Assembly: GCF_900607235.1 (NCBI RefSeq)
Contig: NZ_LR027858.1
Span: 1 to 64,000, forward strand
Direction of reading: 5' to 3'
DNA: 64,000 nucleotides
Source: Olivibacter jilunii
GTDB lineage: Bacteria > Bacteroidota > Bacteroidia > Sphingobacteriales > Sphingobacteriaceae
A program made the position numbers and the translations under genes. The notes beneath the pieces were generated by a model. That model did not search any database, had not been told where the DNA came from, and saw only the letters and a program-made list of their open reading frames with translations. Position 1 is the first letter of the stretch, and every line of letters begins with the position of its first letter. Below are positions 22,566 through 63,813 of the stretch, piece after piece.

Positions 22566-22609
22566 CAAAACTAATAAAAACAGTAAGACCGCTATCCTGT
22601 ACCGTCCTG
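22566..22609 (-). promoter_or_regulatory. CAGG-N6-CAGG operator plus -7 box, sigma gene
   Basis: Minus strand: CAGGACGGTACAGG (22596-22609), a 22-bp spacer, then TAGTTTTG (22566-22573), an exact match to the Bacteroidota -7 consensus TAnnTTTG. Predicted leader to the sigma ATG about 16 nt. Confidence 0.7.
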
Positions 22610-22916
22610 ATTTAAGCGTCTGCAAAACATTTATTTAAGTGATCAGCTTTCGGATATCAGCTTATTTCCCTAGCTCAAGGCCTTAGCGGCTATAAGCTAT
22701 AGGCTTTAGGCTATAAGCGGTAAGCTTTAGACAGCATCTGCCTACTGACAAGTCGGTGAGTTTATGATCTATCGGTTTATTCATCGTTCATCACTTATAA
22801 CTCATCACTACCTAACTAGTTCCCTACTTAAGTCATTCCAGTGATAGCCGTACTAGATACGTACTAAAGAAAAGCAATGGAACAGGGATGGAAATAAAAG
22901 GGATAACGGAGGACAG

Positions 22917-22971
22917 GTGGATGTAACGTGGATATAACGTGGACTTGAGGTGGACCTGAGGTGGATTTCTA
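22917..22971. repeat. 11-bp tandem array, five units
   Basis: Five consecutive 11-mers each begin GTGGA: GTGGATGTAAC, GTGGATATAAC, GTGGACTTGAG, GTGGACCTGAG and GTGGATTTCTA. The period is about one helical turn, so every GTGGA faces the same side of the DNA. It lies about 370 bp upstream of the sigma gene start. A regulatory function is possible but unproven. Confidence 0.75.
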
Positions 22972-23092
22972 GATTGTAATTTTAAAGGGAAAAGACGGTT
23001 TTTGATTGGTTGATTCGGTGTTGGAGATTCTTTACAAAGATACGGAAATTTTTGCTATTGCATAGAGAAGAAAAGCTCGAGTGTTGTATATA

Positions 23093-23467
23093 AAGGAAGG
23101 TTTTCTTTAGTCACTTTTTTCCGCAAAAAGTAACCAAAAACTCCTCGCTTGGAACTTTGCCACAAGCGGTAGTGCATCAACGTGCAAACCGCAAATTTCC
23201 TAGGCGATATTTCAGTAGAACGGAGGGCTTTTGCGGGCAGCTGGTAAGCCCTGTGCGTGGGAAGAATGGCCTTGGAGGATACCGAGGCAACGAGCAGCAA
23301 AGCATTTGCACGTCTGTTCATATTGCAATACCCAAGCGGATTGAGGAAGTGAAACGGCTCCAATACGCGCCGGTAATGCTTTGCAATCAGGTGCAAGGTA
23401 GCCTACACCGCCTTGATTTTGCTCAACTTTTATCAAGAAAAGTTGAATAAAAAAACCTTCCTTTTCC
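23093..23467. repeat. Composite dispersed-repeat element with inverted ends (MITE-like)
   Basis: Left end AAGGAAGGTTTTCTTTAG at 23093 and the reverse complement of the right end (about 23452-23467, giving AAGGAAAAGGAAGGTTTTTT) form imperfect terminal inverted repeats. Inside are a TCCGC-loop hairpin (23113-23131), a core containing AAATTTCCTAGGCGATATTT that recurs at about 33834-33905 and, inverted, at about 62138-62205, a segment shared with 15416-15459, and an 8-bp-arm hairpin CAACTTTT/AAAAGTTG (23424-23445). No coding capacity. The right end touches the GH78 stop codon. Confidence 0.5.
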
Positions 23468-26910: not shown

Positions 26911-28221
26911 TTAGACAAACTTCGTTTTTCCCGGTACGGCTATTCCCGGTCCTTCCCATTTTAGATCCCACGCGTATTCCTCGATGGCGGGCCCTAAACG
27001 GTGCTCCGATTGAATGGCTTGCTCCCAGGTGATCGTTTGTCCGCTATAAGCCACCATCCGGCCCCAAATAGCCAGCATGGTACTATTAGCCATCCACTCT
27101 CCATCGTTGATGACTATGCCTTTGCGTATGGCCGCGAACAATTCATCGTGCTGGGTTTGGTACATGTTATTCTTTTTATCGCGGTACTTCCAATTGTTTT
27201 TCCCTATAATTTCAACCGGACCGCCTATATTAACGACAGCCCGGCCGTCGCTTCCCAAGACCTCAACGCTATTTCTGTTGGACGTACCGGCCTGTTGTCT
27301 GGTAAAGTGAAAACCACGTGCACCATTTTCATACTCAAATTCAATGGCAAAATGGTCATAAATATTTCCGTAGATCTCGTCGGTCCGTACCTGTCGACCA
27401 CCCGTACCGGTTGCTTTTACAGGCATCTTGTCACCCATTGCCCACGACATCATATCCAAACTATGAACGGCCTGTTCTACAATAAAATCACCGGAAAGCC
27501 AGTTATAATAATACCAGTTTCGCAATTGATAAGTCATTTCGGACCAATCCGGTTGTCGGGGAATCGACCATAACTCGCCTCCATTCCTAAAAGTTGACAC
27601 CGTGTTTATCGAACCGATCTCGCCATCAAGCACTTTACCGAATACCGCTCTATTCGCCCAATCGTAACGAAAGCAAAAGCCAGAGACGAGGCATAAACGC
27701 TGCTCTTTTGCCTGCCTCACGGCATCAAGCACTTTACGCACACCAGGCGCATCAACAGCCACGGGCTTTTCGCAGAAAATATGCTTTCCTGCTTTTACTG
27801 CTGCGGCTAAATGATCAGGCCTAAATCCGGGAGGTGTAGCCAACAACACGACGTCCACATCGGCCTCCAATACCCTTTGATAAGCGTCGAACCCGATGAA
27901 ACGGTGCTTCTTGTCCACCTTCACTCGTTTCTCATCTATTTGCGACAACGCGTTGAGCGCCTGTTCCAAACGATCTTCGAAGATATCGCCCATGGCAGTA
28001 ATATACACATTCGGATCGGCCTGTAAAGCTTGAGCTGCAGCGCCTGTCCCCCTACCGCCACAACCGATCAATCCTACCTTCAACACAGATTCCTTCACCT
28101 GCCAAGCAGCGAATGAAGGTTGACGGTAAGCCAAAGTACCCGCTGCCACCAGCAAGCTTGATTTTCTCAAAAATGTTCTTCTATCCGTTTTTTGCGGTTT
28201 AAACTGGTTATACTTCATCAT
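26911..28221 (-). CDS. Tat-exported Gfo/Idh/MocA-family oxidoreductase
   Basis: A 436-residue oxidoreductase with a twin-arginine signal ([16 protein letters not shown]), so it is folded with its NAD(P) in the cytoplasm and exported. The Rossmann motif is [14 protein letters not shown], followed by [16 protein letters not shown] and FCEKPVAVD (about residue 150). The C-terminal domain includes [29 protein letters not shown]. Exported relatives include glycosidases that use tightly bound NAD+ (GH109-like) and 3-keto-glycoside dehydrogenases, so either mechanism is possible. It is the first gene of a three-gene operon with its own CAGG-N6-CAGG promoter about 92 nt upstream. The start could be M1 or M2. 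Confidence 0.9.
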
Positions 28222-28319: not shown

Positions 28320-28364
28320 CAAATAAAGGTTAAAACAAGAAGCGCAGCAACCTGTACCGTCCTG
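28320..28364 (-). promoter_or_regulatory. CAGG-N6-CAGG operator plus -7 box, Gfo-DUF1080-GH78 operon
   Basis: Minus strand: CAGGACGGTACAGG (28351-28364), a 23-bp spacer, then TTTATTTG (28320-28327; one mismatch to TAnnTTTG). Predicted leader about 92 nt. The site abuts the terminator of the upstream GH106 transcript. Confidence 0.7.
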
Positions 28365-33987: not shown

Positions 33988-34032
33988 CTATAATACATCA
34001 AATCAAGCAGGCCGGCAACCTGTAGCGTCCTG
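33988..34032 (-). promoter_or_regulatory. CAGG-N6-CAGG operator plus -7-like box, CE12 operon
   Basis: Minus strand: CAGGACGCTACAGG (34019-34032), a 23-bp spacer, then TATTATAG (33988-33995), a weak -7 match. Predicted leader to CE12 is about 287 nt. Confidence 0.6.
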
Positions 34033-34228: not shown

Positions 34229-36397
34229 CTAAGGCATTTTTTTAAATCCTTCCGCTTTCGCCTGCCACGAACCGTCTTTTGGAAATCCCGGAAGCTCGCC
34301 CTCGCTTCCATCCCATCCACCGGCCATCATGGCTATCGCTGCTAATACGCCTCCATTTCCAGGCAGATAAATACGTAATCTCCCATCTTGGTAGTTATGA
34401 CCATTCCTAAGATATGTATTTGTTTGTATATCCATAAAGAGTGCATCAAGTGCTTTTTCGGGCAGGCCCAGGCGTGCTGCATTCATGGCAGTCATCGGGA
34501 AATCCCAGCCCCAAGTATCGGCCCACGACCAGGTCTTCCAAACCGTATCCAAGGTACTTTTCATCACGTTCTTATCTAGTTTGGGTGATTCAGGAACCAT
34601 GCCTAAAGCGCCCAGCACGGCAGGATGATCCGTCCGCCATTTTGGGTTGGTATAAGAATCCGTTGCGCTCTCAGTTGCTAAGTAAACACCTCCTTGAACC
34701 GGCAGTGCTGCCAACTTCTGAATCACCTCATTCCATTTTTCATTGGGTTCCATGCCTGCCCGTTTGCGCCATTGTTGTGCAATGCGCAAGGCCCAATCCC
34801 AATAGGCAACCTCATAGGTTGGATTGAAAGTTTCAGCCGCTTTAAAAACCTCTTGTGCCGGAATTACGCCTTTACCTAAATTATAACGGGCTTTTACTTT
34901 ATCGTAAGTCGGAAATGACGCCATAAAGTCGGCCGTTTCAAAAACCAGGTCTTTATATTTATCAATGACTTTGGGGTCTTCCTTATCCCGATAGGCCAGT
35001 TCCGCCAAATAAATAAAATGCGGCTGTTGCCAAATAAGAAACGCGGCCACGGAAGAAGGACTTTCATTGCCTTCGTTGTCTGACATTTTTTGCCATCTGG
35101 CACCCTCATATCCCTGACGTTTGGCAATTGCTCTTGCCTTCTCCACCGTATTAGCATAATAGCCGAGGCTTTTTTCCATCAGGTCTACACGACCCCAAAG
35201 TGCAAAATGCACAGCATGCCACCAGTGCATCTCCGTATGTGGTTTACCGAACCAACTGTTGAATGTCAGACCCGTCTCTTGCGGTGGATAATGTCCCGCA
35301 CACTGTACCTTCGTTAAGTACTGCGACAACACCACGCGTCGCTCAAGTTCTTTCGCCCGTGGATCTTTACTCCCGGCAAAATCAATAGCTGCCCCCCGGT
35401 TCCAGAAGTCGGCCCAAGCTTTTGTGCTGCTAGCCAAAGTCTCATCGTATAAAGACAGCTTTCCCTCCATCTTTTTTTGCGAAAAGGCAGCACTGAACTC
35501 CAACAGATCCGTGTTTCTTCCCGGTTGAAAAACAAAATAATGATCTTCTTTACCTTTGTTGAGCTTACCTTCGGTAAAAGTAAGGCTAGTTTCATAACGC
35601 GTTCCCTGGAGCTGATGACTAATATTGGCAAAATGTGTATCGCTTACTTCGATTTTAGTTTGGTGCAGCTCGGGGTGCTCCCAAAAGGTTCCCTCATCCA
35701 AAAACTCCGCTGTTGGGTAAGGATAGCGTATATAGATTGCCAAGCGCCCTTCCTTAATTAAAGGCGATTGCACTTTAACTGCCAGCTGATCCTGCTCTTG
35801 ATGGCCGGCGGTATACACCTCAACCGGCTCGCCTTCCACTTGGAATGAACTATGAATTTCACCTGTCCATAAATTCAGTTCCTGGTGAATATGCGTTAAA
35901 TCTTTTGCTTCTGCGCGTTGACCATTTTTTTTGTACAATTCAAAACCAATATTTCCCAATTGAAGTCGATGCGCATTCTCACGAAACCAATCAGTGGCTT
36001 CTTTATTTCGTTGAGGTTCCTTCCATTGTACACTATATTTGGCATCTCTTCCTTCGTTGTTAAAGTCGTAGCTCTTCAATGTTTCTTCAAAGCGGAAGTT
36101 TTTTTCGTTTTTAAAGCTATCCCACGCCCATTCCGATTGCGTTCCCAAGGCCACTCCCTTTTCGTACAATAAAGGAAAAGTCTGCAAGCCTGTCACATCA
36201 ACTGTAAATGCAAATTCTCCATTACCCACGGTTAAAGAGCTCAATGAATCAATAGACTCATTAACAACATTATGCCGGGTTACTACGGCTTTTCGATCAA
36301 TAGAATCGTTCTTCTTCGTTTGCTTTTGATTACAGGAGAGTATTCCAATCAAACAGCAAGTTAATATCGATAAATAATGTCTTTTCTTGTATATCAT
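34229..36397 (-). CDS. Lipoprotein with predicted (alpha/alpha)6-glycosidase fold, family unassigned
   Basis: A 722-residue lipoprotein (lipobox GILSC). The first third is a beta-sandwich beginning SLTVGNGEFAFTVDVTGLQTFP, an opening motif resembling those of GH65/GH95-like proteins. The remainder is helical with six-hairpin character: SQYLTKVQCAGHYPPQETGLTFNSWFGKPHTEMHWWHAVHFALWG, GYEGARWQKMSDNEGNESPSS, YWDWALRIAQQWRKRAG and TWSWADTWGWDFPMTAMNAARLG. Conserved-looking Glu/Asp/His clusters (TEMHWWH, MSDNEG, WGWD) are candidates for an active site. I cannot assign a CAZy family. The context suggests a pectic side-chain glycosidase. It is 181 bp from the next upstream gene, so possibly the distal gene of that operon. 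Confidence 0.8.
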   Translation of the reverse strand: MIYKKRHYLSILTCCLIGILSCNQKQTKKNDSIDRKAVVTRHNVVNESIDSLSSLTVGNGEFAFTVDVTGLQTFPLLYEKGVALGTQSEWAWDSFKNEKNFRFEETLKSYDFNNEGRDAKYSVQWKEPQRNKEATDWFRENAHRLQLGNIGFELYKKNGQRAEAKDLTHIHQELNLWTGEIHSSFQVEGEPVEVYTAGHQEQDQLAVKVQSPLIKEGRLAIYIRYPYPTAEFLDEGTFWEHPELHQTKIEVSDTHFANISHQLQGTRYETSLTFTEGKLNKGKEDHYFVFQPGRNTDLLEFSAAFSQKKMEGKLSLYDETLASSTKAWADFWNRGAAIDFAGSKDPRAKELERRVVLSQYLTKVQCAGHYPPQETGLTFNSWFGKPHTEMHWWHAVHFALWGRVDLMEKSLGYYANTVEKARAIAKRQGYEGARWQKMSDNEGNESPSSVAAFLIWQQPHFIYLAELAYRDKEDPKVIDKYKDLVFETADFMASFPTYDKVKARYNLGKGVIPAQEVFKAAETFNPTYEVAYWDWALRIAQQWRKRAGMEPNEKWNEVIQKLAALPVQGGVYLATESATDSYTNPKWRTDHPAVLGALGMVPESPKLDKNVMKSTLDTVWKTWSWADTWGWDFPMTAMNAARLGLPEKALDALFMDIQTNTYLRNGHNYQDGRLRIYLPGNGGVLAAIAMMAGGWDGSEGELPGFPKDGSWQAKAEGFKKMP

Positions 36398-36578: not shown

Positions 36579-39500
36579 CTACTCAACAACTTCTAGTGTC
36601 ATTCCCATCAAGCCTATTACTACATCATTGGCTATCGCTCGCAATTCAAGTGTCTTCAGTTCCTTCGTCGGATCGAGCGAGAAGTCCAATAGCGTGGCGG
36701 CGCCACCGTCGATTGCCCGCTTCGTAAATCCCTTGATTTCATCATAACTTCCTTCCCCTCCGCGTACGAACCGGCCGGTTTTCAAATGCAACCGATAGGG
36801 TTTTTCCTTCAGTAGGGAAAAAGCATAACCATCATCCTCATAATCCTGCTCGATCGGCCACCAATTATCGGGATTTCGGAGTTCCAGCTTTTCTTTGGTC
36901 CCGTCCGCGTAAACAATAGTCACTAGGCCATTGATGAACTGGCTCTGCATGGGGTTGGTGGTGCCGGCCATTAGCAAATAAACATGCGAGGCTTTGCCTG
37001 TTAGGGCAAGGGTCTTCTTTGTTGGGTAGTTGTCCCACTGCGAGGTAAACAGGATATCGTTTCCATCAACCGATAATTTTATTGGTACACCATTTGGCAA
37101 GCGTATATGACCCTGTGCCTTCGCTAACCGTTTGGTCCCTTGATCATCTAAAACAGGTTCAATCAAGGGATAGCACCAATTACCGATACCTTGCCAAGGT
37201 AGTTGTAAGGTCGGCGCACCCGGTCGTGGACTTAAGTAACGTTGCTTAAACAATTCTGTTATTTTTCCGTTGAACTCCTTACTTAAGTCCAGCATTTCAT
37301 ATTTTCCTGTCCGTATAGCTGCTTTCTCCAGAGACGCGCTGCGACGATAAGCATCTTCAACGCGTACATCCACAGGCATCCACCATTGCGCATTCCCTTG
37401 TCTAAGCTTTACAAAGAACAATGATTTCCCCACTCGCTTGAAGGAAAACTTCCGTTTCTCATTTGAGGAATCCACCAATACTCGTTGTGGATCGTACACC
37501 TCTTCAAGCCGTGCTTCACGGATATCCAAGTTCAGATCCTGCCCCAAAACGACACTATTTTGATAGCCCAGTTCGGCTATTTCTTTATCAGCCCACTCGA
37601 TCTCAATGTTGTAGCTTGCAGTCTTGGGTATCGACACCTGAAGTGTCGGCTGCCCCAGTGCTTCCTCTATCCATGTGCAGTTAACGTCTTTTCCATTCAC
37701 CCTTACCTGCTTTACTGCCGCTTTTTTAGTGCGCAACAGCAATTTCAAGTTCATACTCCTTTGGTATCTTGGCGTGATTTCATAGTGATCAAGCAATCCC
37801 GAGCGCTTAAAAGAAAAACTTATATTGGGAACATCTAAATCCGCTTCATTCCACGATTGTGGTAAACCGGGACGTATAGTAAGCGTATCAACTAATGCAT
37901 CCGGTAAAATGCCGAATAGCCCCTCCGTTAATGTGCGCGCTGCGACGCCGATCGGATCGGCAAAATCACGGTATAACTCGCCTCTTTGCGCATCATAGAA
38001 AGACAATTGCTGAAAATTACCCGGACTGGCACCTAAGTACATGCTTTCTATAAGGTTGCTTTTCCACAATCGAAAGGCATCTTCCGCTTTGCCTCCCTGC
38101 CAGTACGCAAGAGCCGTTTGTAGGTTTTCAGCAAGTGCCACATTGTTGATCGACCAAGTGTACGGTTGCCAATTTGTTGTAGACAACGTGTAAAGTTGCT
38201 GCTCCGATAGGCCGGCCGCCCGTATGGGGATATGGGGAATATGCTCGTCAACATAAGTTAACGACTGATAGCGCTGAAAGGGTGTAGCCATGCGGGTATC
38301 CAGCGCATGATAGATTGTCCACAATCCTGGTTGCTCGTGCCTTAAGCCCTCACCTAAGAGATCCTTATATTCGGCATACCAGCCTTTATCTTTTAACCAC
38401 AAATACTTGTTTACTGCGTCCTTAATTTTAGCAGCCTCCTGTTTATAAGGGCTTGGATCTTCACCAACGATTGCGGCGAGTCGCGCCGCCATCTCAAAAC
38501 CCCGATAATTATAGGCCGAGGTGTGCGTTACGCCACCACCACTATACTGCAGGGCATCGCTTGCCCAAATGGCGCAATACGCGTCGTATAGCCCATCACC
38601 GTCCTGATCAAAATTCCGTTTCTCCCATGCCAGGTGCCTTTTGATGACAGGCCAGCTAGCTTTTATAAAGGCGGTATCACCTGTATATTGAAAATGGTTA
38701 TATAATTGGTCAAAAAACACCAAGTTCATATCATAGTGATGCGGTTTGGTATTATCATTGGGATTTCTAGAGATATATCCACTGGAGAACACGGTTGTGC
38801 CCATCTCTTCAAGCTGTCTTGCCAAATGCCGCGAGGTATCCGGTACCACTGGCCCCTTCTCAGGCTCCAGTACCTGAGAACGAAGGTAAGCTGAAAAATG
38901 CAATTTAGCGCGATCATGCCAGCCCAGCGGATCAGCCACATAAGCCCCTCGCCAGGCATTTAAGCGCATGCGCCAAGCCACGGCGCCGTGTAAGTAGGTT
39001 GGAAACTCCCATATGGCGTCCGCCGCAATCGCCAATGCACCACCCAGCGTGTTGATATAAGGATCGGGGGTTTTAAGCTTTACGCGCTCCGTTAAGCCCT
39101 TCCGTTTTTCTTCAGCCTGTTGAAAAACTACTTCCAATGGCGCCTGACTTTTTTCCCGTTGGATTGCTATATAAACCGGGTGTTCGTCTTTTAGCAGATA
39201 TTGAGCACCCAACACCGGACGATCAATGGATGAACTTTCCCATAATTCAGGCAACTCCGTCAGCTTATCTGCATTTAGCAGCTTCAGGGACGGTTGTCCG
39301 GAAAAAGCACCGAACAATTCCTGCGTTTGCTTTTTCTTATTTAAAAAGTTCAAATGGAATCCGCGATTGTTTAGGGTAAACGTATTCGCTTCGCAATTCT
39401 GGGGCAATAAATAAAAGCTCGATTCCGGGTCGGCACCTATGTCGCCGGCACGACTGAAATTTTGCCCACTAGCTCCTCCATAGATGGCCCAAAGTTTAAT

Positions 39501-39983
39501 TGAATGTGCGATATTTCTTCCCTCTACGCGAAGAATCAAACCTTCATTCTCCGCTTGTGCCAAAACTTGCACCGTCAATCGTCCATCACCTAACAGTGTA
39601 TCTTTAATCCAGTAAATCATTGTCCCCGGACGATACCGAGTTTCAATATGATCCGCATCAATCAGTCTTTTATAGTTCTTACCATCGGTCAGCACAAATT
39701 GTAAGTTACCGCCCATGCCCGGCAAGTATAAAGCAAATTCAGGCAAATCGCCCGCTTCCACGCGAAAAGCCGTATTCGTGCCATACAAGGCGCGATTAAA
39801 TCGCCGCCTCCCTTGCACCAACACAAAGTCTTCGCCCTCGGGTTTGTAATGTACCACTCGTTCTATACCGTGCCATAAAGGCTTATGGTCATTTTCCTGC
39901 GCGTAGGATGGATCGCTCGATAATATCATACTTATCGATATGATCATGCTCAGAAAAAATGTTCTTTTTTTTATCATAACCAA
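36579..39983 (-). CDS. DUF4450-domain large secreted protein
   Basis: A 1134-residue exported protein (signal ending SSDPSYAQ). The N-terminal domain matches DUF4450 in style: PLWHGIERVVHYKPEG, RRRFNRALYGTNTAFRVEAGDLPEFALYLPGMGGNLQF and MIYWIKDTLLGDGRLTVQVLA. The middle (about residues 330-760) is a six-hairpin-type glycosidase barrel (HGAVAWRMRLNAWRGAYVADPLGWHDRAK, YDMNLVFFDQLYNHFQYTGD, SDALQYSGGGVTHTSAYNYRGFEMA). The C-terminus holds beta-domains. Such proteins occur in Bacteroidota pectin PULs with no activity I can state. The start may be M3. It is separated from GH28 by 304 bp of repeat-containing DNA. Confidence 0.82.
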   Translation of the reverse strand: MVMIKKRTFFLSMIISISMILSSDPSYAQENDHKPLWHGIERVVHYKPEGEDFVLVQGRRRFNRALYGTNTAFRVEAGDLPEFALYLPGMGGNLQFVLTDGKNYKRLIDADHIETRYRPGTMIYWIKDTLLGDGRLTVQVLAQAENEGLILRVEGRNIAHSIKLWAIYGGASGQNFSRAGDIGADPESSFYLLPQNCEANTFTLNNRGFHLNFLNKKKQTQELFGAFSGQPSLKLLNADKLTELPELWESSSIDRPVLGAQYLLKDEHPVYIAIQREKSQAPLEVVFQQAEEKRKGLTERVKLKTPDPYINTLGGALAIAADAIWEFPTYLHGAVAWRMRLNAWRGAYVADPLGWHDRAKLHFSAYLRSQVLEPEKGPVVPDTSRHLARQLEEMGTTVFSSGYISRNPNDNTKPHHYDMNLVFFDQLYNHFQYTGDTAFIKASWPVIKRHLAWEKRNFDQDGDGLYDAYCAIWASDALQYSGGGVTHTSAYNYRGFEMAARLAAIVGEDPSPYKQEAAKIKDAVNKYLWLKDKGWYAEYKDLLGEGLRHEQPGLWTIYHALDTRMATPFQRYQSLTYVDEHIPHIPIRAAGLSEQQLYTLSTTNWQPYTWSINNVALAENLQTALAYWQGGKAEDAFRLWKSNLIESMYLGASPGNFQQLSFYDAQRGELYRDFADPIGVAARTLTEGLFGILPDALVDTLTIRPGLPQSWNEADLDVPNISFSFKRSGLLDHYEITPRYQRSMNLKLLLRTKKAAVKQVRVNGKDVNCTWIEEALGQPTLQVSIPKTASYNIEIEWADKEIAELGYQNSVVLGQDLNLDIREARLEEVYDPQRVLVDSSNEKRKFSFKRVGKSLFFVKLRQGNAQWWMPVDVRVEDAYRRSASLEKAAIRTGKYEMLDLSKEFNGKITELFKQRYLSPRPGAPTLQLPWQGIGNWCYPLIEPVLDDQGTKRLAKAQGHIRLPNGVPIKLSVDGNDILFTSQWDNYPTKKTLALTGKASHVYLLMAGTTNPMQSQFINGLVTIVYADGTKEKLELRNPDNWWPIEQDYEDDGYAFSLLKEKPYRLHLKTGRFVRGGEGSYDEIKGFTKRAIDGGAATLLDFSLDPTKELKTLELRAIANDVVIGLMGMTLEVVE

Positions 39984-47608: not shown

Positions 47609-50600
47609 TTAAAACGTTACGTTCAATCCGAAGATCAACGATTTCGGAATCGGTAGACCGCCATAATCACCCGCTTCCGGAAACTGCGTGCTACCACTTA
47701 AGTTCGTGTTCGTTGCTTCTGGGTTAAAACCACCTTTGTATTTATCATGACCAAAGAAATTCTCAGCCGTAACAAATATGCGCGCACCTTGGAAAGTTGT
47801 CTTCGGAATGATCCGTCCCAAATCGTAACCCAATGTGATATTCCGTACCCGAATGTAGTCGGAAGGATAGTACCAATCCGTATTTTTGATTCGGCCGAAA
47901 GTTCCGGTTGTCTTTCCTACTTCACCGGCCCCCGGGTCCTCCGGTGAGCGCCAGCGATCGCGCCAGCTGCCCAGCACATTATCCACAATACCGGTTCCGG
48001 TCCGGTTAACAGCCCGACCAAATAAAGAGTAGATACCACCGCCCCACTGGCCTTGTACGAGTACACTCAAATCGAAGCCCTTATATCGGAAGGTATTGGT
48101 AATACCCCATGTATATTTTGGATTAGGCTGACCTACAATAACACGGTCGTTCTCATTAATGATGCCATCACCGTTGGCATCAAAATATTTCGGATCACCC
48201 GCTGTTTGATTTCCATACAAAGCCGCTCCGTTGTCAATGTCGGCCTGCGATAGAATACCCTCTTGCCGAACCACATAAATGCTGTACATCGGGTCGCCCA
48301 CGCGTAAAATACTATGTGAGATATCAAAAGAAGATGGGATCAGGATTTGCGACTGCCCGTTAGGTAATGAAGTCAGCTTATTGCTGTTATGACTCAAGTT
48401 AAAAGAAGTACTCCATTGAAATGCATCCGCCGTCCCTGTAATATTTTGGCTGTTGATTTCCAATTCCCATCCTCTGTTACGTACGCTTCCTGCATTATCC
48501 AGGGAAGACGCAAAGCCCGTGATTTGCGACACCGGCACGTTCAAGAGCAGTCCGGTACTCTTACGATCATAGTAATCGATTGTAGCGGTAATACGGTTAT
48601 TAATGAACCCTAAATCAAGTCCGACATCAAATGTATTCGACTTTTCCCAAGTTAAATCGGGGTTCACGATACCATTAGGAGCTAATCCTGTAACCAGCTG
48701 CCCACCTAAAGAGTAGGCATAGTTTCCGAGGACCGACAGGCTACTATAGTCGCCAATGTTGTAGTTCCCCGACTTACCCCAGCTGGCACGCAATTTAAGA
48801 TCACTCAATGTTCCCTTAATACTTTGCATAAAATCTTCCTGCGACACACGCCAGCCTATAGACGCAGAAGGGAACCAGCCCCATTTGGTATTTGCACCAA
48901 AGCGAGATGAACCATCTCGTCTAGCCGACACGCTCAGTAAGTACTTATCTTGATACGCGTATTGCAAACGTCCGAAATAGGAGAGTAAGACATTCTTGGT
49001 TTCCGTTGTATTACCCGTCACGCCCAATGCATAATTCAAGGTCGTAATGGTACTACTTCCATAGCCGTTTTGGGATGACATGGTTGCATTATCCAGTTTA
49101 TCGGAGTTATAAGAAAAACCCAAAAGCGCAGAGATGCTGTGGTCATTGGCAATCGTCTTATTATAATTCAACGTATTTTCATTAACCAGTGTTTGTCTTC
49201 TGAAAGTACTATACGTTCCGGAAGTACGTTTGGTTAAATCCGATTGCCTATTCGGTAAACTACCGGTAATCGTAAAAGGAATATAACGCTTAAAGGTATT
49301 ATCCACATGGTCTAAATTGAGGGTTGTTTTGAAGTTCAGTCCATCAACAATCTCGTATTGACCAAATAAAGACCCGACTGTACGGAAGCGTTTGGTCACG
49401 GCCAAGGTTTGCTCTAATTTACCTACCGGACTGTTGGCCGAAGTACTCCAGCGGTATTGAGGGTTGTCACCAACATTAGGATATAGGCCGGCACTTGCTT
49501 CCTGTACCGGTGTAAATGAAACTAATTGATGCAGGATATTATCTTTTCCTTCCACACCCGGATCGTTATTAATCGAATAGGTGGGGGTTAAATTAATACC
49601 AAAAGTCAGTTTTTCATTAGCTTTCACCTCTACATTGGCACGCGCCGCATAGGAGGTAAAGTCCTGCTCTTTCACCATCCCTTGTTGTCCGTTGTAATTA
49701 CCCGAAACATAATATTTAACCGCGTCGGTACCGCCACTAGCAGAAAGTTGGTAATTTTGCACTAAACCTTTACGGAAAGTTTCATCTTGCCAATCAATAA
49801 TATTTAGTCCTGGATAACCCGGCTGTACCCAACGATCATCAATCATGTACCGTGTATCGACCTGATCAGCTGCTATGCCCAGAATAGCACGTCTTTCTTC
49901 CGTTGTTTGATCGGCCGTTCTACCCGAGCCGGAGGTGACCCATTGGTAATTGATCATTTCAATAGCACGATCTATCCACTCCGGACCACTTAACATATCA
50001 AGCTTTTTACTGCGCTCATTATAGCCTACGTAGGTATTTAAATTAATGGACGGCTTTCCAGACTTTCCTTTTTTAGTCGTGATAATAACCACTCCATTGG
50101 CTGCGCGGGAACCGTATATAGCTGCCGATGACGCATCCTTTAGCACTTGGATGGATTCGATATCATTCGGGTTGATATTATCCAATGGATTGCCGGTAGA
50201 ATAGCCACCATTTTGATTAGGCGTTGCTCCCGATAGCGGGAAGCCGTCCAGAACGTACAGCGGTTCATTTCCGGCGGAGATTGAACCAACACCACGTACC
50301 TGGACACTCAAACCTTGCCCGGGATTCCCGGTAGTTTGTTTGACACGGACACCGGCCATTTGTCCAACCAAGGCCTGATCAACTCGTGGAAGTGGTCTTT
50401 CCGTTAATTTTTCAGTATTCATGGTTGCTACTGACCCAGTGATATTACCCCGTTTTTGTTGGCCATATCCTACCACGACAACTTCATCCAAACCTTGGCT
50501 ATCTTGATCCAAGGTAACATTTACAACAGGCCCCGCAACGGTTACCTCTTTTGGTTTGTGTCCCACAAAGGAGAAAATCAAGATTTCATTTTTTGCGGCT

Positions 50601-51000: not shown

Positions 51001-51045
51001 CAATATTAAAGAGCTCAATAAATGGATGCATCCTGTAGTGTCCTG
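51001..51045 (-). promoter_or_regulatory. CAGG-N6-CAGG operator plus -7 box, susC2 operon
   Basis: Minus strand: CAGGACACTACAGG (51032-51045), a 23-bp spacer, then TAATATTG (51001-51008; one mismatch to TAnnTTTG). Predicted leader about 134 nt. Confidence 0.7.
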
Positions 51046-56723: not shown

Positions 56724-56768
56724 CAATATTAAAGAGTGAAGAAAGCCTCCGCGTCCTGTAGTGTCCTG
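56724..56768 (-). promoter_or_regulatory. CAGG-N6-CAGG operator plus -7 box, susC3 operon
   Basis: Minus strand: CAGGACACTACAGG (56755-56768), a 23-bp spacer, then TAATATTG (56724-56731). The same box and core as at susC2. Predicted leader about 125 nt. Confidence 0.7.
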
Positions 56769-56981: not shown

Positions 56982-59852
56982 CTAATCCGTTAGTACATTT
57001 ACCTTCGGCATCTCAAATTGTTTGTTTTCCCCATTCACTTTTGGAGTTCCGAAGTAAAAATAAACCTTTCTTTCGATGAGCTTTCCGGAGAGGTGATTCA
57101 GTTCGCTTTGCGGTCCCAGTCCTTTGGTATCAGTGGTCATATTCAACGCAAGTTTAGTACCAATAGGCGGTATCGCATCCAAAAAAGAGATATCCCCGAC
57201 AGGTAGATCCGGATGTGGCTTTGCGCCGGTTAGTCCGTAAAAATCAAACAGGCGTACATATTGGTCTTCCGTTGGAAAAGACATATAGAACTTACCTTCT
57301 ACGGTGTTCATTTCCATCCAAGTAACATCCGCGTAATAACCCTTAAATTCGGGATAGCGCCAAGGATAACTACCCGTTTGCGTATTATTATTCCGATTCT
57401 TCCAAACACCATACGTAGTGCCTTGCAGCCTGTTTTTCCATACACGGTAGGGACCTTTACCAAGCCACTTTACACCCAAAACAAAATTTTCGGGGTAAGA
57501 AAAGCTGATGCCGGCGAAAGGTTGATCACCACTTAACGCGTAAGCGTAGTCCATTTCGAGCCATCCCGATTTATCCATCTTCCATTTGATATACTTTAAA
57601 TCACCGTTGCATGACGCTTCCACAACAGCAATATGACCTTCCCGGTAATGCTTTACTGATACGGCCTTTGCTTGTCCGCTCACTAAAACAGGCCCGTCTT
57701 TAAAAGAAAGTGCTTTACTATAAGCATTCGCTAAATGCGCCAATAGACCTGTATTTTTATGAATTGAGACCGTTATACCATTGGCCGTTAACTGTATCAG
57801 GCTATCCTTTTCCTGCATGTTAACTGTTCCGTCGATGGGCTCATCAAATTGATGAACCGCGAGTTGCTCATTAGGTTTGATTTTCCATACCCAACGACAG
57901 ATCTCATTCCCTTGGGAGTCGAATGCCGTTAAAGCCAGGGCATCTTCGTTAGACCAATTTGCTGGTAAATCAATAGACAAATGACCGGTTGCTAAAGGTG
58001 CAATAGCGGGAAACCTGCCCTTTCCGCTTGATACAGTGGTAGAGCCTTCACCATTTTGTAAGAGTTTGTCAAAATTTAAGAGTTCCCATTTAAAAGTACA
58101 CTGATTCAGGTTCGTAAAATGATAGCGATTTTCTACTGAAATACGCCCATCAAAATCAGGAGGAAGTTCCTTCCCGTCGATTTTAATAGGTGCATAAATT
58201 TCCCGGATCGCATTCACACTTCCCTCGTGCTCACGATGGGGACCTACTAAACCATCGGGCGCGTTGACGCCATTGACGTCAATCATATTTTGCTCATCTG
58301 TACGAACTAATCCCTCATCCACCAAAGCCCAAAGGAAACCGCCCGCGCCTCTTTTAGCCTTCCAATGCAGCTCCCATATGTCGGCGAGCCCGGCGGCTCC
58401 ACCACCGTCATCTTGTGCATGTAGAAATTCAGTGGGCATATAGATATTCGTATCCGCTAAAATCTTCTGCGTACTGTAATAATCTTCATAATGATTACAA
58501 TCGATCCCATTAAAATCATTGCCAGGACGATGATGCGCGTGAATTACCGGTCTTTTCGACAGGTCGTAATGCCCATATATGGTGTCTAGATCAAAATTAT
58601 GTCCGCCTTCATTCCCATTGCTCCAAAAGATAATGGATGGATGATTTAGGTCGCGCAGAACCATTTCCTTTACCAATTTTGTTCCCACCGGTGTTGCATA
58701 AGCCTTTTGCCAGCCCGCTAATTCATCGATAACATAGAGTCCTAAAGAATCGCAGATATCCAAGAAAGACTGATCGGGCGGATAATGTGAGCAACGAACG
58801 GCGTTCATGTTCATATATTTCATCAGCTTCACATCCTCCAAGTCAATACGAGCATTTACTGATCGTCCCGTTTCGGGCCACCATACATGTCGGTTTACTC
58901 CTTTCATTTTGATCTTCGTCCCATTCAGGTAAATGCCGTTCTGCTTGCGTATTTCAATGGTACGAAAGCCAAATTGCTGCTGCGTTAAGTATACCAACTT
59001 CCCATTTTTATAGAGCTCAGTTCTCGCACGGTAACGGTTAGGGCTTTCGGCGGTCCACAAAGCAGGATTACTCACTTTGGTATTAAAAGACACGACGGAA
59101 TCCCCTTCCCTGGCCAAAGCTTCCAGCATATCCACCGTTTTGCCTCGTTGATCAATAATACTCGCCTTCACTTTCATTTGTGCGGATATTCCTTCAAGGT
59201 GAGCTTGCATACGAAAAGAACCATCAGCCTTTGCGTCAATGGCTACATAGTCAATAAATGATGGCGGTACTATTTCCAGATACACCGGGCGAAAAATTCC
59301 GCCGAGAATCCAGTAATCGGCTAGTCGTTCGGCATTATTAACGGACGGATCCCCGGACATCTTACTAACTGTAACTTCCAATTGGTTTTCCTTTCCGTAG
59401 CGGAGCTTGTCACTTATATCATAACGAAAGCGATAAAAAGCGCCCTGATGGATCGGGCCGGCGGATTGGCCATTTATTTTTACCTCAGCATCGGTCATTA
59501 CCCCTTCAAAGACAATAAATATTTTTTCCCCCTTCCATTGTTCATTAACCGGAAAAGTATGTCGATATACTCCTTTCTCGTCATGAAAGCGAAAGTTTTT
59601 GCCATAGGTAACATAATCCCTTCCATAATTATAATGCCCATACCCCTGTTGTTCCCAATGAGCCGGAACAGCAATTTTTCCCCATTTACCACTCTTCCGT
59701 CCGCCCGAGCACCAAAAGTCCCACTTCACCGTATGTTCATTATCTGTACCGGATAGATACTGAACCCGCTTTTCGACTTCTTGGGAAAAAGCGGTGTACA
59801 GACCAAAGGTCATGAAAATAAAGAGTAAGAAGGTTTTATGTGCGATAAGCAT
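56982..59852 (-). CDS. GH2-family beta-galactosidase-like glycosidase
   Basis: A secreted GH2 enzyme of about 956 aa. It has signal ending TAFSQ, a sugar-binding jelly-roll domain (VPAHWEQQGYGHYNYGRDYVTYG; YRHTFPVNEQWKGEKIFIVFEGVMTDAEVKINGQ), an Ig-like domain, and a TIM barrel. The barrel shows NRHVWWPETG, IIFWSNGNEGG (acid/base Glu, residue 423 of the longest frame) and YMPTEFLHAQDDGGG (nucleophile candidate Glu, 483). A C-terminal small-chain-like beta domain follows. The frame opens at 59876, but the predicted transcription start (about 59883) leaves almost no leader there. The ATG at 59852, with GGAG just upstream, is the better start. It probably removes beta-galactosyl residues of pectin side chains; specificity is inferred. 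Confidence 0.92.
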   Translation of the reverse strand: MLIAHKTFLLFIFMTFGLYTAFSQEVEKRVQYLSGTDNEHTVKWDFWCSGGRKSGKWGKIAVPAHWEQQGYGHYNYGRDYVTYGKNFRFHDEKGVYRHTFPVNEQWKGEKIFIVFEGVMTDAEVKINGQSAGPIHQGAFYRFRYDISDKLRYGKENQLEVTVSKMSGDPSVNNAERLADYWILGGIFRPVYLEIVPPSFIDYVAIDAKADGSFRMQAHLEGISAQMKVKASIIDQRGKTVDMLEALAREGDSVVSFNTKVSNPALWTAESPNRYRARTELYKNGKLVYLTQQQFGFRTIEIRKQNGIYLNGTKIKMKGVNRHVWWPETGRSVNARIDLEDVKLMKYMNMNAVRCSHYPPDQSFLDICDSLGLYVIDELAGWQKAYATPVGTKLVKEMVLRDLNHPSIIFWSNGNEGGHNFDLDTIYGHYDLSKRPVIHAHHRPGNDFNGIDCNHYEDYYSTQKILADTNIYMPTEFLHAQDDGGGAAGLADIWELHWKAKRGAGGFLWALVDEGLVRTDEQNMIDVNGVNAPDGLVGPHREHEGSVNAIREIYAPIKIDGKELPPDFDGRISVENRYHFTNLNQCTFKWELLNFDKLLQNGEGSTTVSSGKGRFPAIAPLATGHLSIDLPANWSNEDALALTAFDSQGNEICRWVWKIKPNEQLAVHQFDEPIDGTVNMQEKDSLIQLTANGITVSIHKNTGLLAHLANAYSKALSFKDGPVLVSGQAKAVSVKHYREGHIAVVEASCNGDLKYIKWKMDKSGWLEMDYAYALSGDQPFAGISFSYPENFVLGVKWLGKGPYRVWKNRLQGTTYGVWKNRNNNTQTGSYPWRYPEFKGYYADVTWMEMNTVEGKFYMSFPTEDQYVRLFDFYGLTGAKPHPDLPVGDISFLDAIPPIGTKLALNMTTDTKGLGPQSELNHLSGKLIERKVYFYFGTPKVNGENKQFEMPKVNVLTD

Positions 59853-59889
59853 GCTCCGGCATTTATTTATAAGCATTGTTTATATACGT

Positions 59890-59934
59890 TAAAAATAAAA
59901 GAATGAGGTTAAAAGACTATCCTGACGCGTCCTG
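59890..59934 (-). promoter_or_regulatory. CAGG-N6-CAGG operator plus -7-like box, GH2 gene
   Basis: Minus strand: CAGGACGCGTCAGG (59921-59934), a 23-bp spacer, then TATTTTTA (59890-59897). It overlaps almost the whole 65-bp gap to the next gene, showing that GH2 has its own start site even though it closely follows the GH78-like gene. Confidence 0.62.
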
Positions 59935-59941
59935 CCACCAT

Positions 59942-61720
59942 CTATTTAATTACCTTAATACCTTTCGGCGCCTTTACGGTAGACTCAATCGTCCCGTTAG
60001 CTCGCTTACTATGCCGAATTTCAATCAGCCCGTACGGAGTAGGAAAAGTACCTTCTACCCATTGCAAGTCACCCAGATGAGGTTCGACTTTGATGACCTT
60101 ACAGCCAGCTTCCAAAATCTTCACACCAAGTATATGTTCACTCATCCAAGCGGTAGGCCCGGATGCCCAACCATGGCAAAGGCTATGTCGAAACCCGGGA
60201 TAGCAATAGGCACCGAAATCTCCGTGTATATCCTTTTTACCTGGTACCGGTACCTCGTCAATGCGCGTAGCATTTTTTGTCCAATCCAAATTAAAGTCTT
60301 CCCAAAAGGTAGTAGCGCCCATGTCCAACATGCCCCCCCAATATTGGCGAATGATATCCATGGCTTGCTGATATTGTCCGGCTTTTGCTTGTGCCTGTAA
60401 CATATAATAGCCATAAAAGGTAGAGAAATCTTTAGCGCCGCCAACCGAAACTACTTCATTACAAGCTTTCTCCGGATCAATAAGCCCGGCTATAGCCATT
60501 AAGGAAGCAGCCTGCTTTAATTGATGATGATCTTTTACATATTTATTCATACGTGCAACACAGGCTTCTGCTTTCTTTGCAGCAATCGGTTGTTTTAAAA
60601 TTTCACATAATTTGACAGCATCTTGCATCGCCCAGACGATGAGCGCTCTATACCCCGCCTCTACTCCTTCCTTATTGGGAGTAGACGGCCAATCTAAAAA
60701 GCGTTCCGCAGCTAGATTCTCTCTGCCTTCAGCATCAACTTTACTGTCAATTAAATCGATCAAGCCCAAAATATAGTTTTGATGTTTCCTTAGAAAATCA
60801 ATATTCCCATTGTATTTATACCAATCGTGCTGAATAATCAGGTACCATAAAGAGTATGCACTCATGCCGTTCATCCATTGCGGCAAGGGATATTGTTGGC
60901 AAGCCAAATCCAGGGTTTTTGGCACCACGTCATTGTCACCGAACACTCGTGCAATGGTAGATACTTCCGGATGCATATCACCTAGCCATATCAAACGATC
61001 CCGTTTAATACCATCCCACAAATACTCTTGCATATTCAGATGCACAGTATAGGCTCCCGTTAGCCAAATTTTATTGAGCCGTTCATCGTTACTTTTAAAT
61101 GATCCCAAATAAGGTATATCACGGTATCGCAAAATTGCCCTCGCTTCTTTAATATGGATGGTGGTATTCTTCTGCAATAGGTCAATACGAACAAAGCGGA
61201 ACCCCGTATTGCCGAGTTCTATTAACCCATCCCGAGGTATTTCCATGATAATATCTCGCTTGGCATGGTCGTCAGTCGAATACCCAACTCCCCATTCATA
61301 ATTTCGGGTTTGGCTATTGCACTCCCCTACCGATTCGCCAAAACGAATACGGACCAAAGATGGTTCGCGACGTGTAGAGCCTCCCAATACAAGCTGTATC
61401 CCCCCGTGTATTTCCTTTCCATAATCCAATAAGATGGAGGCGGTCTCATTTTGGTTACTCACCATTTCGCACATATTTTTTTTACCGAGTTCGGTCTGGC
61501 TATTCCCTATCTTTAAGAGTTCATTTTCATTTGTTACCAAACTGCCATCTCCAGCATATTTCCAAACAATCCGTTGGGGTGATATAAAAATCCGTGTCAA
61601 TTCATCTTTTTGTATTTTTCCATCATATATTGATTCAAATACCGGGGGTAACTGTGCATATAATATGGAAGAGGCACAAGTCCATAGACATAGCTGGATT
61701 GTGAGAAGGAATGATTTCAT
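59942..61720 (-). CDS. Short GH78-like (alpha-L-rhamnosidase-superfamily) protein
   Basis: A 592-residue exported protein (signal ending SILYAQ) with the layout of compact GH78 relatives. The N-terminal beta domain has DYGKEIHGGIQLVLGG and a fold-typical GFRFVRIDLL. The six-hairpin domain carries YLWDGIKRDRLIWLGDMHPEVS in place of the usual DCPQR...GWTGDA signature. A C-terminal beta-sandwich ends with YPGFRHSLCHGWASGPTAWMSEHILGVKI and VEPHLGDLQWVEGTFPTPYGLI. The Asp/Glu positions are kept (GIKRDR, GDMHPE), so catalysis is plausible, perhaps on a different rhamnoside or another deoxy-sugar. It has its own CAGG-N6-CAGG promoter with a 46-nt leader. Confidence 0.85.
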   Translation of the reverse strand: MKSFLLTIQLCLWTCASSILYAQLPPVFESIYDGKIQKDELTRIFISPQRIVWKYAGDGSLVTNENELLKIGNSQTELGKKNMCEMVSNQNETASILLDYGKEIHGGIQLVLGGSTRREPSLVRIRFGESVGECNSQTRNYEWGVGYSTDDHAKRDIIMEIPRDGLIELGNTGFRFVRIDLLQKNTTIHIKEARAILRYRDIPYLGSFKSNDERLNKIWLTGAYTVHLNMQEYLWDGIKRDRLIWLGDMHPEVSTIARVFGDNDVVPKTLDLACQQYPLPQWMNGMSAYSLWYLIIQHDWYKYNGNIDFLRKHQNYILGLIDLIDSKVDAEGRENLAAERFLDWPSTPNKEGVEAGYRALIVWAMQDAVKLCEILKQPIAAKKAEACVARMNKYVKDHHQLKQAASLMAIAGLIDPEKACNEVVSVGGAKDFSTFYGYYMLQAQAKAGQYQQAMDIIRQYWGGMLDMGATTFWEDFNLDWTKNATRIDEVPVPGKKDIHGDFGAYCYPGFRHSLCHGWASGPTAWMSEHILGVKILEAGCKVIKVEPHLGDLQWVEGTFPTPYGLIEIRHSKRANGTIESTVKAPKGIKVIK

Positions 61721-61772: not shown

Positions 61773-61818
61773 CAAACATACACATAAACGCTATGCAATC
61801 GCAACCTGCGCCGTCCTG
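61773..61818 (-). promoter_or_regulatory. CAGG-N6-CAGG operator plus -7 box, GH78-like gene
   Basis: Minus strand: CAGGACGGCGCAGG (61805-61818), a 24-bp spacer starting with TTG, then TATGTTTG (61773-61780), an exact TAnnTTTG match. Predicted leader about 46 nt. This is one of the two best -7 boxes in the set. Confidence 0.75.
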
Positions 61819-62205: not shown

Positions 62206-62298
62206 AATAACGAATAAAAGTGATTAAAAAAAACGTTCTTTTAATATAAACACCTTCTGCTGTATGTTAAAAGCGAATTTATTAAAGCGTGTGTACTC

Positions 62299-62340
62299 TA
62301 TGTCTTGATACTTATGTCTCGATACTTATATCTTGATACT
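62299..62340. repeat. 14-bp tandem array, three units
   Basis: Units TATGTCTTGATACT, TATGTCTCGATACT and TATATCTTGATACT are followed by a partial TATCGGCTTG. It lies about 110 bp upstream of the CE7 start and just upstream of its candidate promoter. Confidence 0.8.
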
Positions 62341-62370
62341 TATCGGCTTGAAAAAAATCGAAGATAACAA

Positions 62371-62400
62371 TTGAACAATATCGAATTCTCATTACTTTAG
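62371..62400 (+). promoter_or_regulatory. Candidate CE7 promoter
   Basis: TTG (62371-62373), 19 bp, then TACTTTAG (62393-62400), close to the Bacteroidota -33/-7 pattern TTG-N19-TAnnTTTG. Predicted leader about 40 nt. No CAGG-N6-CAGG site precedes it. Confidence 0.4.
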
Positions 62401-62448
62401 CAAAAGTAAACGACAACCTTGCTATAATGGCATTATTAAACTTAAATT

Positions 62449-63744
62449 ATGACTATGCGATTTATTTATTTATGGGCGTTTCTACTATTTGTAATTGTTT
62501 TTCGAGTAACTGCCCAGCCCAGCGAGCAATTTATTAAGGTGATAGTAGCACCCGATCATGAGAACTGGGAATACAAGCTAAATGAACCGGTGAAATTCAC
62601 GGTTACCATTCTTCAAAATGGCAATCCATTAAAGAATATTCCTTTACGTTATGAGCTCGGCCCGGAAAAAATGCCAGCACTTAAGAAAGATTCGCTGTTG
62701 TTGACGTCCGCGTCCTATACCGTTAAAAGTGAAGGCATGAAGCAGCCAGGCTTTCTTCGCTTAACTGCCTATGCCTATGTAAATGGCAAAGCATATAAAG
62801 GCCTTGCCACCGCTGGATTTACACCGGAACAAATTGAACCAACAGCCCAACTGCCGAATGATTTTGTCGCATTCTGGAATCAAGCCAAGAAAGAACTGGC
62901 CGGAATTCCGCTAGATGCAAAGATGACGCTATTGCCCGAACGATGTACGGAAAAAGTGAACGTCTATCATGTCAACATGCAGAACTATGGTAATTCCAGG
63001 CTTTACGGTATTCTGTGCATCCCTAAAGCAACGGGCAAATACCCCGCTATTTTAAGAGTTCCGGGCGCCGGCGTTAGACCTTACAATGGCGACATTGCAA
63101 CCGCCGAGAAGGGATTTATAACCCTAGAAATAGGCATTCATGGCATACCGGTAAACATGGACCCTGAACTTTATGCCAGTCTCCGTTTGGGTGGGTTGGG
63201 GAACTACTTTAATTATAACTTAGATAATCGGGACCGCTTTTACTATAAACGCGTATACTTAGGTTGCGTGCGAGCGAATGATTTCATTACTTCATTACCT
63301 CAGTTTGATGGTGAGCAACTGGCAGTGATTGGCGGCAGTCAGGGCGGAGCACTTGCGATTGTAACCGCTTCGTTAGATGCTCGTGTCAAATTTTTAGCTT
63401 CCTATTACCCCGCACTAAGTGATTTAACAGGATACCTAAAAGGCCGAGCCGGTGGCTGGCCACATTATCTCGATTCAGCGAGCCGGGAAGTTAATAATAC
63501 GAAAGAAAAGCTACAAACAATGGGTTATTATGATGTTGTCAATTTTGCAAGACAACTTAAAGTGCCTGGTATTTATTCATGGGGGTTTAACGATGAAACC
63601 TGTCCGCCAACTTCTTTATATGCCGTGTATAACGTAATCCAGTCTCCAAAAGAACTCTATCTTGCTTTAGAAACCGGACATTGGACTTATAAAGAACAGA
63701 ATGAGGCAGTAGGTGAATGGCTGGAAGAAAGGCTTATTAAATAG
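62449..63744 (+). CDS. CE7-like acetyl xylan esterase/cephalosporin-C deacetylase-family esterase
   Basis: A 431-residue exported alpha/beta-hydrolase. After the signal peptide (ending RVTAQ) comes an N-terminal Ig-like domain (KLNEPVKFTVTILQNG), then a CE7-type domain beginning PNDFVAFWNQAKKELAGIP. Catalytic residues are GGSQGG (S297), GFNDETCPP (D382) and ETGHWTY (H411). The RVPGAGVRPY segment resembles the oxyanion region. CE7 enzymes remove acetyl groups from sugars and short oligomers, so here it could act on acetylated pectin or hemicellulose fragments. It is transcribed away from the rest of the locus and lacks the shared operator, so it may be regulated separately. The start may be M1 or M3. 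Confidence 0.9.
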   Translation: MTMRFIYLWAFLLFVIVFRVTAQPSEQFIKVIVAPDHENWEYKLNEPVKFTVTILQNGNPLKNIPLRYELGPEKMPALKKDSLLLTSASYTVKSEGMKQPGFLRLTAYAYVNGKAYKGLATAGFTPEQIEPTAQLPNDFVAFWNQAKKELAGIPLDAKMTLLPERCTEKVNVYHVNMQNYGNSRLYGILCIPKATGKYPAILRVPGAGVRPYNGDIATAEKGFITLEIGIHGIPVNMDPELYASLRLGGLGNYFNYNLDNRDRFYYKRVYLGCVRANDFITSLPQFDGEQLAVIGGSQGGALAIVTASLDARVKFLASYYPALSDLTGYLKGRAGGWPHYLDSASREVNNTKEKLQTMGYYDVVNFARQLKVPGIYSWGFNDETCPPTSLYAVYNVIQSPKELYLALETGHWTYKEQNEAVGEWLEERLIK

Positions 63745-63768
63745 CGGAAATTTAGTAAATGAAGCCAA

Positions 63769-63813
63769 CATAACGGTACAGGATGAAAATCAATTGAAAT
63801 ATATTTTTTTTTG
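63769..63813 (+). promoter_or_regulatory. Degenerate CAGG-N6-CAGG site plus -7-like box, right-edge sigma gene
   Basis: Plus strand: CATAACGGTACAGG (63769-63782), in which only the first half-site is degenerate, a 23-bp spacer, then TTTTTTTG (63806-63813). The spacing equals that of the minus-strand copies. Predicted leader about 30 nt to 63850. Confidence 0.5.

Follow-up and report, generated by a model that had tools for sequence, protein, structure and literature searches.

AraR, the namesake of the AraR subfamily of GntR regulators, acts by repression from a palindromic operator. The targets described for the subfamily are genes of sugar catabolism, including polysaccharide genes (PMC4494728). 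The same source lists GntR proteins that act on direct repeats, namely NanR, NagQ and FarR and the MocR types GabR, TauR and PdxR, so a direct-repeat operator does not exclude the GntR family. In Bacteroides, the hybrid two-component systems (HTCSs) HTCS_Rgu-1 and HTCS_Rgu-2 have predicted rhamnogalacturonan regulons (PMC3878776), and RhaR is of the AraC type in Bacteroides thetaiotaomicron and of the DeoR type in other phyla (PMC3870299). For the rhamnogalacturonan clusters of Bacteroidota, the usual explanation is a regulator encoded within the cluster itself (HTCS, SusR or sigma/FecR). Here we describe an 18-bp operator that recurs in the first 64,000 nucleotides of contig NZ_LR027858.1 of Olivibacter jilunii (the window; the contig is C11 in our numbering) and whose best candidate reader is probably a GntR/LacI-type protein encoded at C15:98701-99729, which we call RhaR-like. 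We propose, with a probability of about 0.6, that the site is the operator of a rhamnose and rhamnogalacturonan regulon, read and activated by the C15 protein with a sugar ligand, the reader being most likely a rhamnose-responsive activator that lies over the -33 position.

The candidate shares with the AraR subfamily the domain order, a GntR winged helix and a LacI/GalR-type effector domain, as well as predicted sugar-catabolic targets and a match in the Protein Data Bank (PDB) to the DNA-binding domain of Bacillus subtilis AraR. It differs in phylum and probably in sugar, and its predicted operator is not an AraR-type palindrome but a tandem direct repeat, placed as for activation. With NanR, NagQ, FarR and the MocR types it would share GntR winged helices that act on direct repeats, but those proteins have other effector domains and other repeats, whereas here a 10-bp period is fixed over -33. 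The HTCS_Rgu systems are similar in the kind of substrate, in the target operons and in having direct-repeat operators common to several promoters; however, they are AraC-type membrane regulators encoded in the locus, with a spacing of about 21 bp, in contrast to the 10 bp and the predicted cytoplasmic regulator encoded elsewhere in this genome. The RhaR systems also control rhamnose regulons, and the DeoR-type motifs are direct repeats of 10-11 bp, but the protein families differ, and the Bacteroides RhaR has a single target operon (PMC3878776) compared with more than 10 promoters here. In the literature searched we found neither a GntR/LacI rhamnose regulator nor this operator in Bacteroidota; supplements and RegPrecise lay outside that search and may hold such a prediction. 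The parts are of known kinds, and what appears to be new is the combination of a GntR/LacI protein, a 10-bp repeat over -33 and the control of clusters and sigma genes. In this genome, entire clusters with their sigma switches, and the catabolism of the sugar itself, appear to be under a regulator of the monosaccharide type that is encoded elsewhere; if true, this is a feed-forward hierarchy whose operator can be read. The 18-mer followed by 19 bp and a -7 box could help to find rhamnose regulons in Bacteroidota that lack annotation and might serve as an inducible promoter for laboratory strains, and the system allows one to ask whether GntR/LacI proteins can activate.

A sequence-only reading of the window had proposed eight CAGG-N6-CAGG sites, and all eight can be read directly from the window at their coordinates and strands (Table 1). 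Seven are exact occurrences of CAGGACN4CAGG, and the one described as degenerate, at 63769 on the plus strand, reads CATAACGGTACAGG. Counted from the last base of the 14-mer, the promoter octamer, placed earlier at 22-25 bp and mostly 23, lies 22 bp away at site 22596, 24 at 61805 and 23 at the remaining six. The octamers had been called TAnnTTTG-like; the fit is full at 22596 and 61805 only, and the six others are imperfect (TTTATTTG, TATTATAG, TAATATTG twice, TATTTTTA and TTTTTTTG). The 10-bp period stands, and it supports the placing of both halves on one face of the DNA, but the conserved site is 18 bp long, (R)CAGGAYRSTA-CAGGWTGC, a tandem direct repeat of two CAGGAY copies in which the WTGC that was said often to follow the motif is part of the second repeat. 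Downstream of the 18-mer come 19 unconserved bases and then the TAnnTTTG-like box. A flavobacterial sigma-A consensus puts this box at -12 to -5 (PMC9723704), and with this placement the 18-mer would span about -49 to -32 and so cover -33 rather than lie just upstream of it as proposed. The fixed spacing of a box-like octamer is observed at the genome's own sites and at those of relatives, and its position at -12 to -5 is taken from the consensus.

The geometry is retained in relatives, where loss of the sites from orthologous loci would have spoken against an operator. We scanned 80 loci around relatives of the cluster's glycoside hydrolase family 106 (GH106) protein, the closest named ones being Olivibacter proteins that are 80% and 62% identical, and the site matrix alone gave 105 matches above 13 compared with 9 in the reversed sequence. 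Of the 102 matches above 13.9, 16 that lay in frames or had no downstream gene, one without flank and 20 near-copies were removed, leaving 65 sites, and a separate redundancy filter left 52; the relatives are not phylogenetically independent. At 41 of the 52 sites TAnnnT lies exactly 23 bp past the 14-mer, although the box was not used in finding them, and the next-highest offset outside the site itself has a count of 5. Around -33 these 41 sites have TTG in 9 cases and TTTG in none. Among the 65 sites the T, A and T of the box stand in the same columns in 59, 59 and 61 cases, and no upstream or spacer column outside the site and the box exceeds 0.6 bits.

The rigid distance and the missing -33 element favor activation from over -33, a position comparable to that in class II activation. 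The main rival is that the same GntR/LacI protein represses, covering -33 until the sugar releases it. AraR is a repressor, and the site does sit on -33. AraR, after which the subfamily is named, also controls arabinose genes of Firmicutes (PMC4494728). However, a repressor need not stand at a constant distance, and 41 of the 52 sites nevertheless have 23 bp; the promoters also look weak when bare, since 32 of 41 have no TTG at -33. We consider repression at this place unlikely.

A single AraC domain contacts two major grooves separated by one helical turn, often overlapping -35, and the operator geometry would therefore also fit an AraC-family or HTCS activator. Such a reader would agree with the HTCSs of Bacteroides rhamnogalacturonan loci and with the AraC-type RhaR used for rhamnose in B. 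thetaiotaomicron (PMC3878776, PMC3870299), and AraC-like genes are present in three of the GH106 loci (L065, L073 and L076). The published motifs, however, have a periodicity of about 21 bp, and no second half-site 21 bp away is found in the 65 aligned sites, and we rejected a 21-bp AraC/HTCS repeat. Among the 119 HTH_18 (AraC-domain) matches listed for the genome, from 150 scored candidates, none lies on C11, C15 or C19, and a pattern scan of the fetched GH106 loci with intergenic sites turned up no AraC-like gene. An activator of this type is improbable.

Two variants were seen among the relatives' sites. At L062:18955-18982 and L254:723-750 a third consecutive 10-bp repeat is present, which suggests a head-to-tail extension or two registers. 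At L097:16091-, L106:16681- and L052:12835+ the usual distance leads to TAAAATCG instead of TAnnTTTG, perhaps reflecting a different sigma factor or a variant box.

The sequence-only reading had taken the shared operator to be non-random, and a chance origin is ruled out by Markov shuffles, by reversed-pattern counts and by the spacing in relatives. The window holds 7 copies of CAGGACN4CAGG, whereas 60 first-order Markov shuffles gave a mean of 0.07 and a maximum of 1, and in the whole 6.7 Mb genome the word occurs 14 times compared with 3 times for the reversed pattern. A random genome-wide spread, which would have counted against the proposal, is not what we observe: eight of the 14 words lie before genes on C11 (the seven in the window and 66428), and the six on other contigs all fall within open frames of 235-817 codons. 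The eight proposed sites are an incomplete set, and the series runs past the window on C11 with sites at 66424-, 85999-, 86139+ and 109616- and weaker ones at 77634+ and 80722-. A matrix of the eight exact sites, applied to C11:1-100000, recovered 63769+ and gained 86003- and 86139+. A later general matrix, trained also on relatives' rhaT sites and applied to the whole contig, gained 109616- before rhaT, 80722- before a gene for a 459-aa protein, and 77634+ before a gene that by eye is GH28-like (77837-79204), the latter two being weaker with correctly placed boxes. The best reversed-control score on the contig, 17.9, exceeds those of 109616-, 80722- and 77634+ (17.0, 15.3 and 12.1), and these three are for that reason credited on spacing, position and conservation and not on score. 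In total C11 carries 14 sites, of which 11 are strong, two are weak and one stands before the operon of the rhamnose transporter; all 14 lie 41-321 bp ahead of a start codon, and site 66424 also runs into a divergent FecR-like frame whose start is probably set too far upstream.

Two sequence models, both trained partly on sites that they recover, delimit the operator in the genome. The first (R1, 50 columns, 11 own training sites) ranked its training sites at the top with E values of 2.8e-6 to 5e-4, the next best match having 0.13. The second (R2) was built from 60 sequences, the 11 own sites and 49 of a further 52 listed, after exclusion of one overlapping copy, one sequence without a box and one more. 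R2 reported 10 C11 sites and one at C19:309 at E ≤ 0.007, site 61805 reaching just E = 0.3. This confinement to C11 and C19 rules out a global operator, and weak matches on C7 and C6 (E 0.15 and above) are not credited. The C19 site precedes a gene for a 1082-aa protein that resembles GH106 by eye. On these matches, the operator in this genome is confined to the predicted rhamnogalacturonan/rhamnose regulon.

The gene content of the operator-bearing C11 cluster identifies it as a rhamnogalacturonan cluster. Pfam matches include GH78, GH106, GH88, L-rhamnose mutarotase, GDSL esterase, GH28, oligogalacturonate lyase, GH43-like and GH2, and further AXE1 esterase, SusD, extracytoplasmic function (ECF) sigma factors and FecR, with SusC and additional SusD calls made by eye. 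The proposal that the targets include the sigma gene itself applies twice, because both sigma genes (22543- and 63850+) are preceded by the operator, and the sigma/FecR switches would consequently sit below another regulator. Beyond the cluster lies what we take, from sequence recognition, to be the rhamnose operon rhaT-rhaEW-rhaA-rhaB (C11:103372-109555), with the promoter CATAACAGGGCATGACAG-N19-TATCTTGC. Twenty rha loci of relatives were fetched, with rhaT unrecognised in 2. In 17 of the other 18 the rhaT promoter carries a site that differs by at most one base from a template built on own and cluster sites, typically CATGACAGTRCATGACAG, and that is followed after 19 bp by the box; the scoring included the box and kept the best position in 260 bp, and two of the 17 boxes are poor. 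The exception, G020, has a site at a different locus, where it separates rhaEW from the regulator gene. CAGG forms prevail at clusters and CATG forms at rhaT.

An OmpR-type response regulator and a histidine kinase are encoded at C11:101335-103343 (L134:1335-3343), between the cluster and the rha operon, with Response_reg, Trans_reg_C, HisKA and HATPase_c domains. OmpR-family proteins bind direct repeats of 10-11 bp, and this pair could be thought to be the regulator. It is, however, absent beside rha in four genomes of the same genus that all have R2 matches (G001-G004; L197-L200), and because its position is not conserved within the genus we rejected it as highly improbable.

That the regulator is not obviously encoded in the window agrees with our search, which found no regulator for the operator there, and a pattern scan of the relatives' fetched GH106 loci found no regulator gene linked to them. 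The rha loci of the 20 relatives do point to one. A gene for a protein of 343-345 aa comes immediately before rhaT in L209, L211 and L213; in L204 it closes the rha operon at its 3' end, and in L240, L245 and L246 the regulator gene is divergent with an operator site in between. Pfam, applied to three of the proteins from L204, L209, L211 and L213, gave GntR and Peripla_BP_3 matches: the GntR winged helix (PF00392) is above cut-off in all three, and the LacI/GalR-type effector domain (PF13377) is found in all three and above cut-off in one. The domains of the C15 orthologue, which is 67% identical to the G005 copy, come from matches to PDB and to LacI-family models. Residues 15-83 match the DNA-binding domain of B. 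subtilis AraR (PDB 4egy, E = 1.2e-4), and residues 276-331 match LacI-family models below their cut-offs; the protein's match to LacI in the PDB is weak (E about 0.07). The C15 gene adjoins a 908-aa gene that looks by eye like a rhamnosidase. Inspection by eye also shows C19 and the end of C15 to resemble portions of a single uninterrupted stretch of G004:C16 (L256), and C19, with its 309 site and 1082-aa gene, and the regulator-bearing end of C15 are probably genome neighbors.

The regulator and the sites occur together across 120 genomes, our own included, which the R2, regulator and rhaA searches are taken to cover alike (at least G004, behind R2, is among them). R2 sites are found in 33 of 40 genomes with the regulator and in 3 of 80 without (table 33/7/3/77), and rhaA in 40 of 40 and 2 of 80, respectively (table 40/2/0/78), so that 40 of the 42 rhaA genomes have the regulator; G041, with a 37% homologue, was scored as negative. 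The three site-only genomes have one match each, with about 1.2 false matches expected at E ≤ 0.01. Four of the seven regulator-positive genomes without a model match have a CATG- or CATA-form rhaT site (G010, G016, G017 and G038). Genome G039 serves as a negative control, having rhaA but neither a regulator match nor a site before rhaT. We give more weight to linkage, because rhamnogalacturonan eaters keep rhaA and sites and lifestyle could explain the co-occurrence. With 25 kb as the limit, the regulator gene is linked to a site or to rhaA in 30 of 39 relatives (at most 1.8 expected), to rhaA in 17 of 39 (0.4 expected) and to a site in 20 of 32 site-bearing genomes (at most 1.4 expected), the rhaA of G023 (a partial match), of G124 and of our own genome being omitted. 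A single good R2 match (E = 5e-4) was also seen at G052:C11:52315-52358, in a genome without a rhaA or regulator match.

A second GntR/LacI homologue is encoded at C5:4021-5031 (L238), 50% identical to the C15 copy and located between genes that by eye are GH2-like and SusC-like. At least two homologues exist in several genomes, and the split between CAGG forms at clusters and CATG forms at rhaT would follow if the cluster sites were read by a paralogue such as this one and a different set by the C15 protein. Yet in four genomes with a single homologue at E ≤ 1e-60 a CAGG-form site occurs together with a rhaT site of the CAT form (G005 and G006 have CATG, G040 has CATC and G042 has CATA), so a single reader could suffice for the CAGG and the CATG-like forms. 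No operator of the tandem CAGG type lies near C5:4021, a tandem-repeat search there gave nothing convincing, and this homologue may read another sequence. We regard such a division of labor as rather improbable.

In the mechanism that we favor, the RhaR-like C15 protein would bind the tandem 10-bp repeat with one winged helix per CAKGAY on a single face of the DNA, the second repeat occupying the position of the -33 element. Its ligand would probably be L-rhamnose or a product of its catabolism, as the linkage to rhaT and rhaA suggests. The ligand-bound protein would recruit RNA polymerase to promoters that have a -7 box and mostly no -33 box. This would turn on rhaT and the genes of rhamnose catabolism, the enzyme and SusC/D operons in the pectin cluster, and the two sigma genes, and the surface-sensing sigma switches would thus be made only once rhamnose is already metabolised. 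Sites, spacing, conservation, targets, co-occurrence and gene linkage are read from sequence; binding, ligand and activation by the C15 protein we infer.

Several observations weigh against this proposal. Characterised GntR/LacI chimeras (AraR of Firmicutes) are repressors on palindromes. A homologue is present in 24 of 24 named genomes searched from the 80 loci, several of which have no credible site in the GH106 locus, indicating that the regulator gene does more or acts elsewhere in these genomes and that having it does not ensure an operator at the GH106 locus; three of these loci (L065, L073 and L076) have an AraC-like gene. Three genomes of one genus (G018, G063 and G072; g15) have the regulator and rhaA without a model match, and in G018 the regulator adjoins rhaT, yet no site was found at that locus. 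In our own genome no site was found near the regulator gene on C15, and R2 did not report the rhaT site, whose score stays just below the best reversed control. Co-occurrence alone could also reflect a shared lifestyle among non-independent relatives. More tentatively, and with somewhat more doubt than belief, we suggest that across Bacteroidota a GntR/LacI chimera, of a class known for repression, may have turned activator, binding head-to-tail on a tandem 10-bp repeat that replaces -33. It would join the catabolism of rhamnose, the import of rhamnogalacturonan and sigma signalling at the outer membrane in a single regulon, in which CATG (catabolic) and CAGG (cluster) repeats set different strengths.

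Table 1. Operators in the window, their boxes, downstream genes and model E values.
Operator (18 bp)	Position (strand)	Box	Box position	Target	R1 E	R2 E
CAGGACGGTACAGGATAG	22592..22609 (-)	TAGTTTTG	22566-22573	49 bp before ECF sigma gene 21977-22543		0.0016
CAGGACGGTACAGGTTGC	28347..28364 (-)	TTTATTTG	28320-28327	before Gfo/Idh (26911-28221), PF06439 and GH78 genes		5.5e-5
CAGGACGCTACAGGTTGC	34015..34032 (-)	TATTATAG	33988-33995	before GDSL esterase, GH88, RhaM and GH106 genes		1.2e-4
CAGGACACTACAGGATGC	51028..51045 (-)	TAATATTG	51001-51008	before susC/susD-like and oligogalacturonate-lyase/GH28 genes		1.1e-5
CAGGACACTACAGGACGC	56751..56768 (-)	TAATATTG	56724-56731	before next susC/susD-like pair		9e-4
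CAGGACGCGTCAGGATAG	59917..59934 (-)	TATTTTTA	59890-59897	before GH2 gene 56982-59876		0.0016
CAGGACGGCGCAGGTTGC	61801..61818 (-)	TATGTTTG	61773-61780 (24 bp)	before rhamnosidase-like gene 59942-61720	3.9e-4	0.3
CATAACGGTACAGGATGA	63769..63786 (+)	TTTTTTTG	63806-63813	before second ECF sigma gene 63850-64506		3.6e-4

The operator before the GH2 gene lies right past the stop of the upstream gene, and the first half of the operator before the second sigma gene carries a GG->TA change. The SusC-like protein encoded after the first sigma/FecR pair (17032-20502) has an N-terminal extension that resembles, by eye, the STN signalling domain, and the SusC-like proteins at 47609 and 53323 seem by the same inspection to be without one. 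In the pectin operon, the 722-aa product of 34229-36397 has no Pfam match and a weak match to kojibiose hydrolase, and the 1134-aa product of 36579-39983 has a DUF4450 match and weak rhamnosidase-like matches; both are possible unassigned glycosidases.

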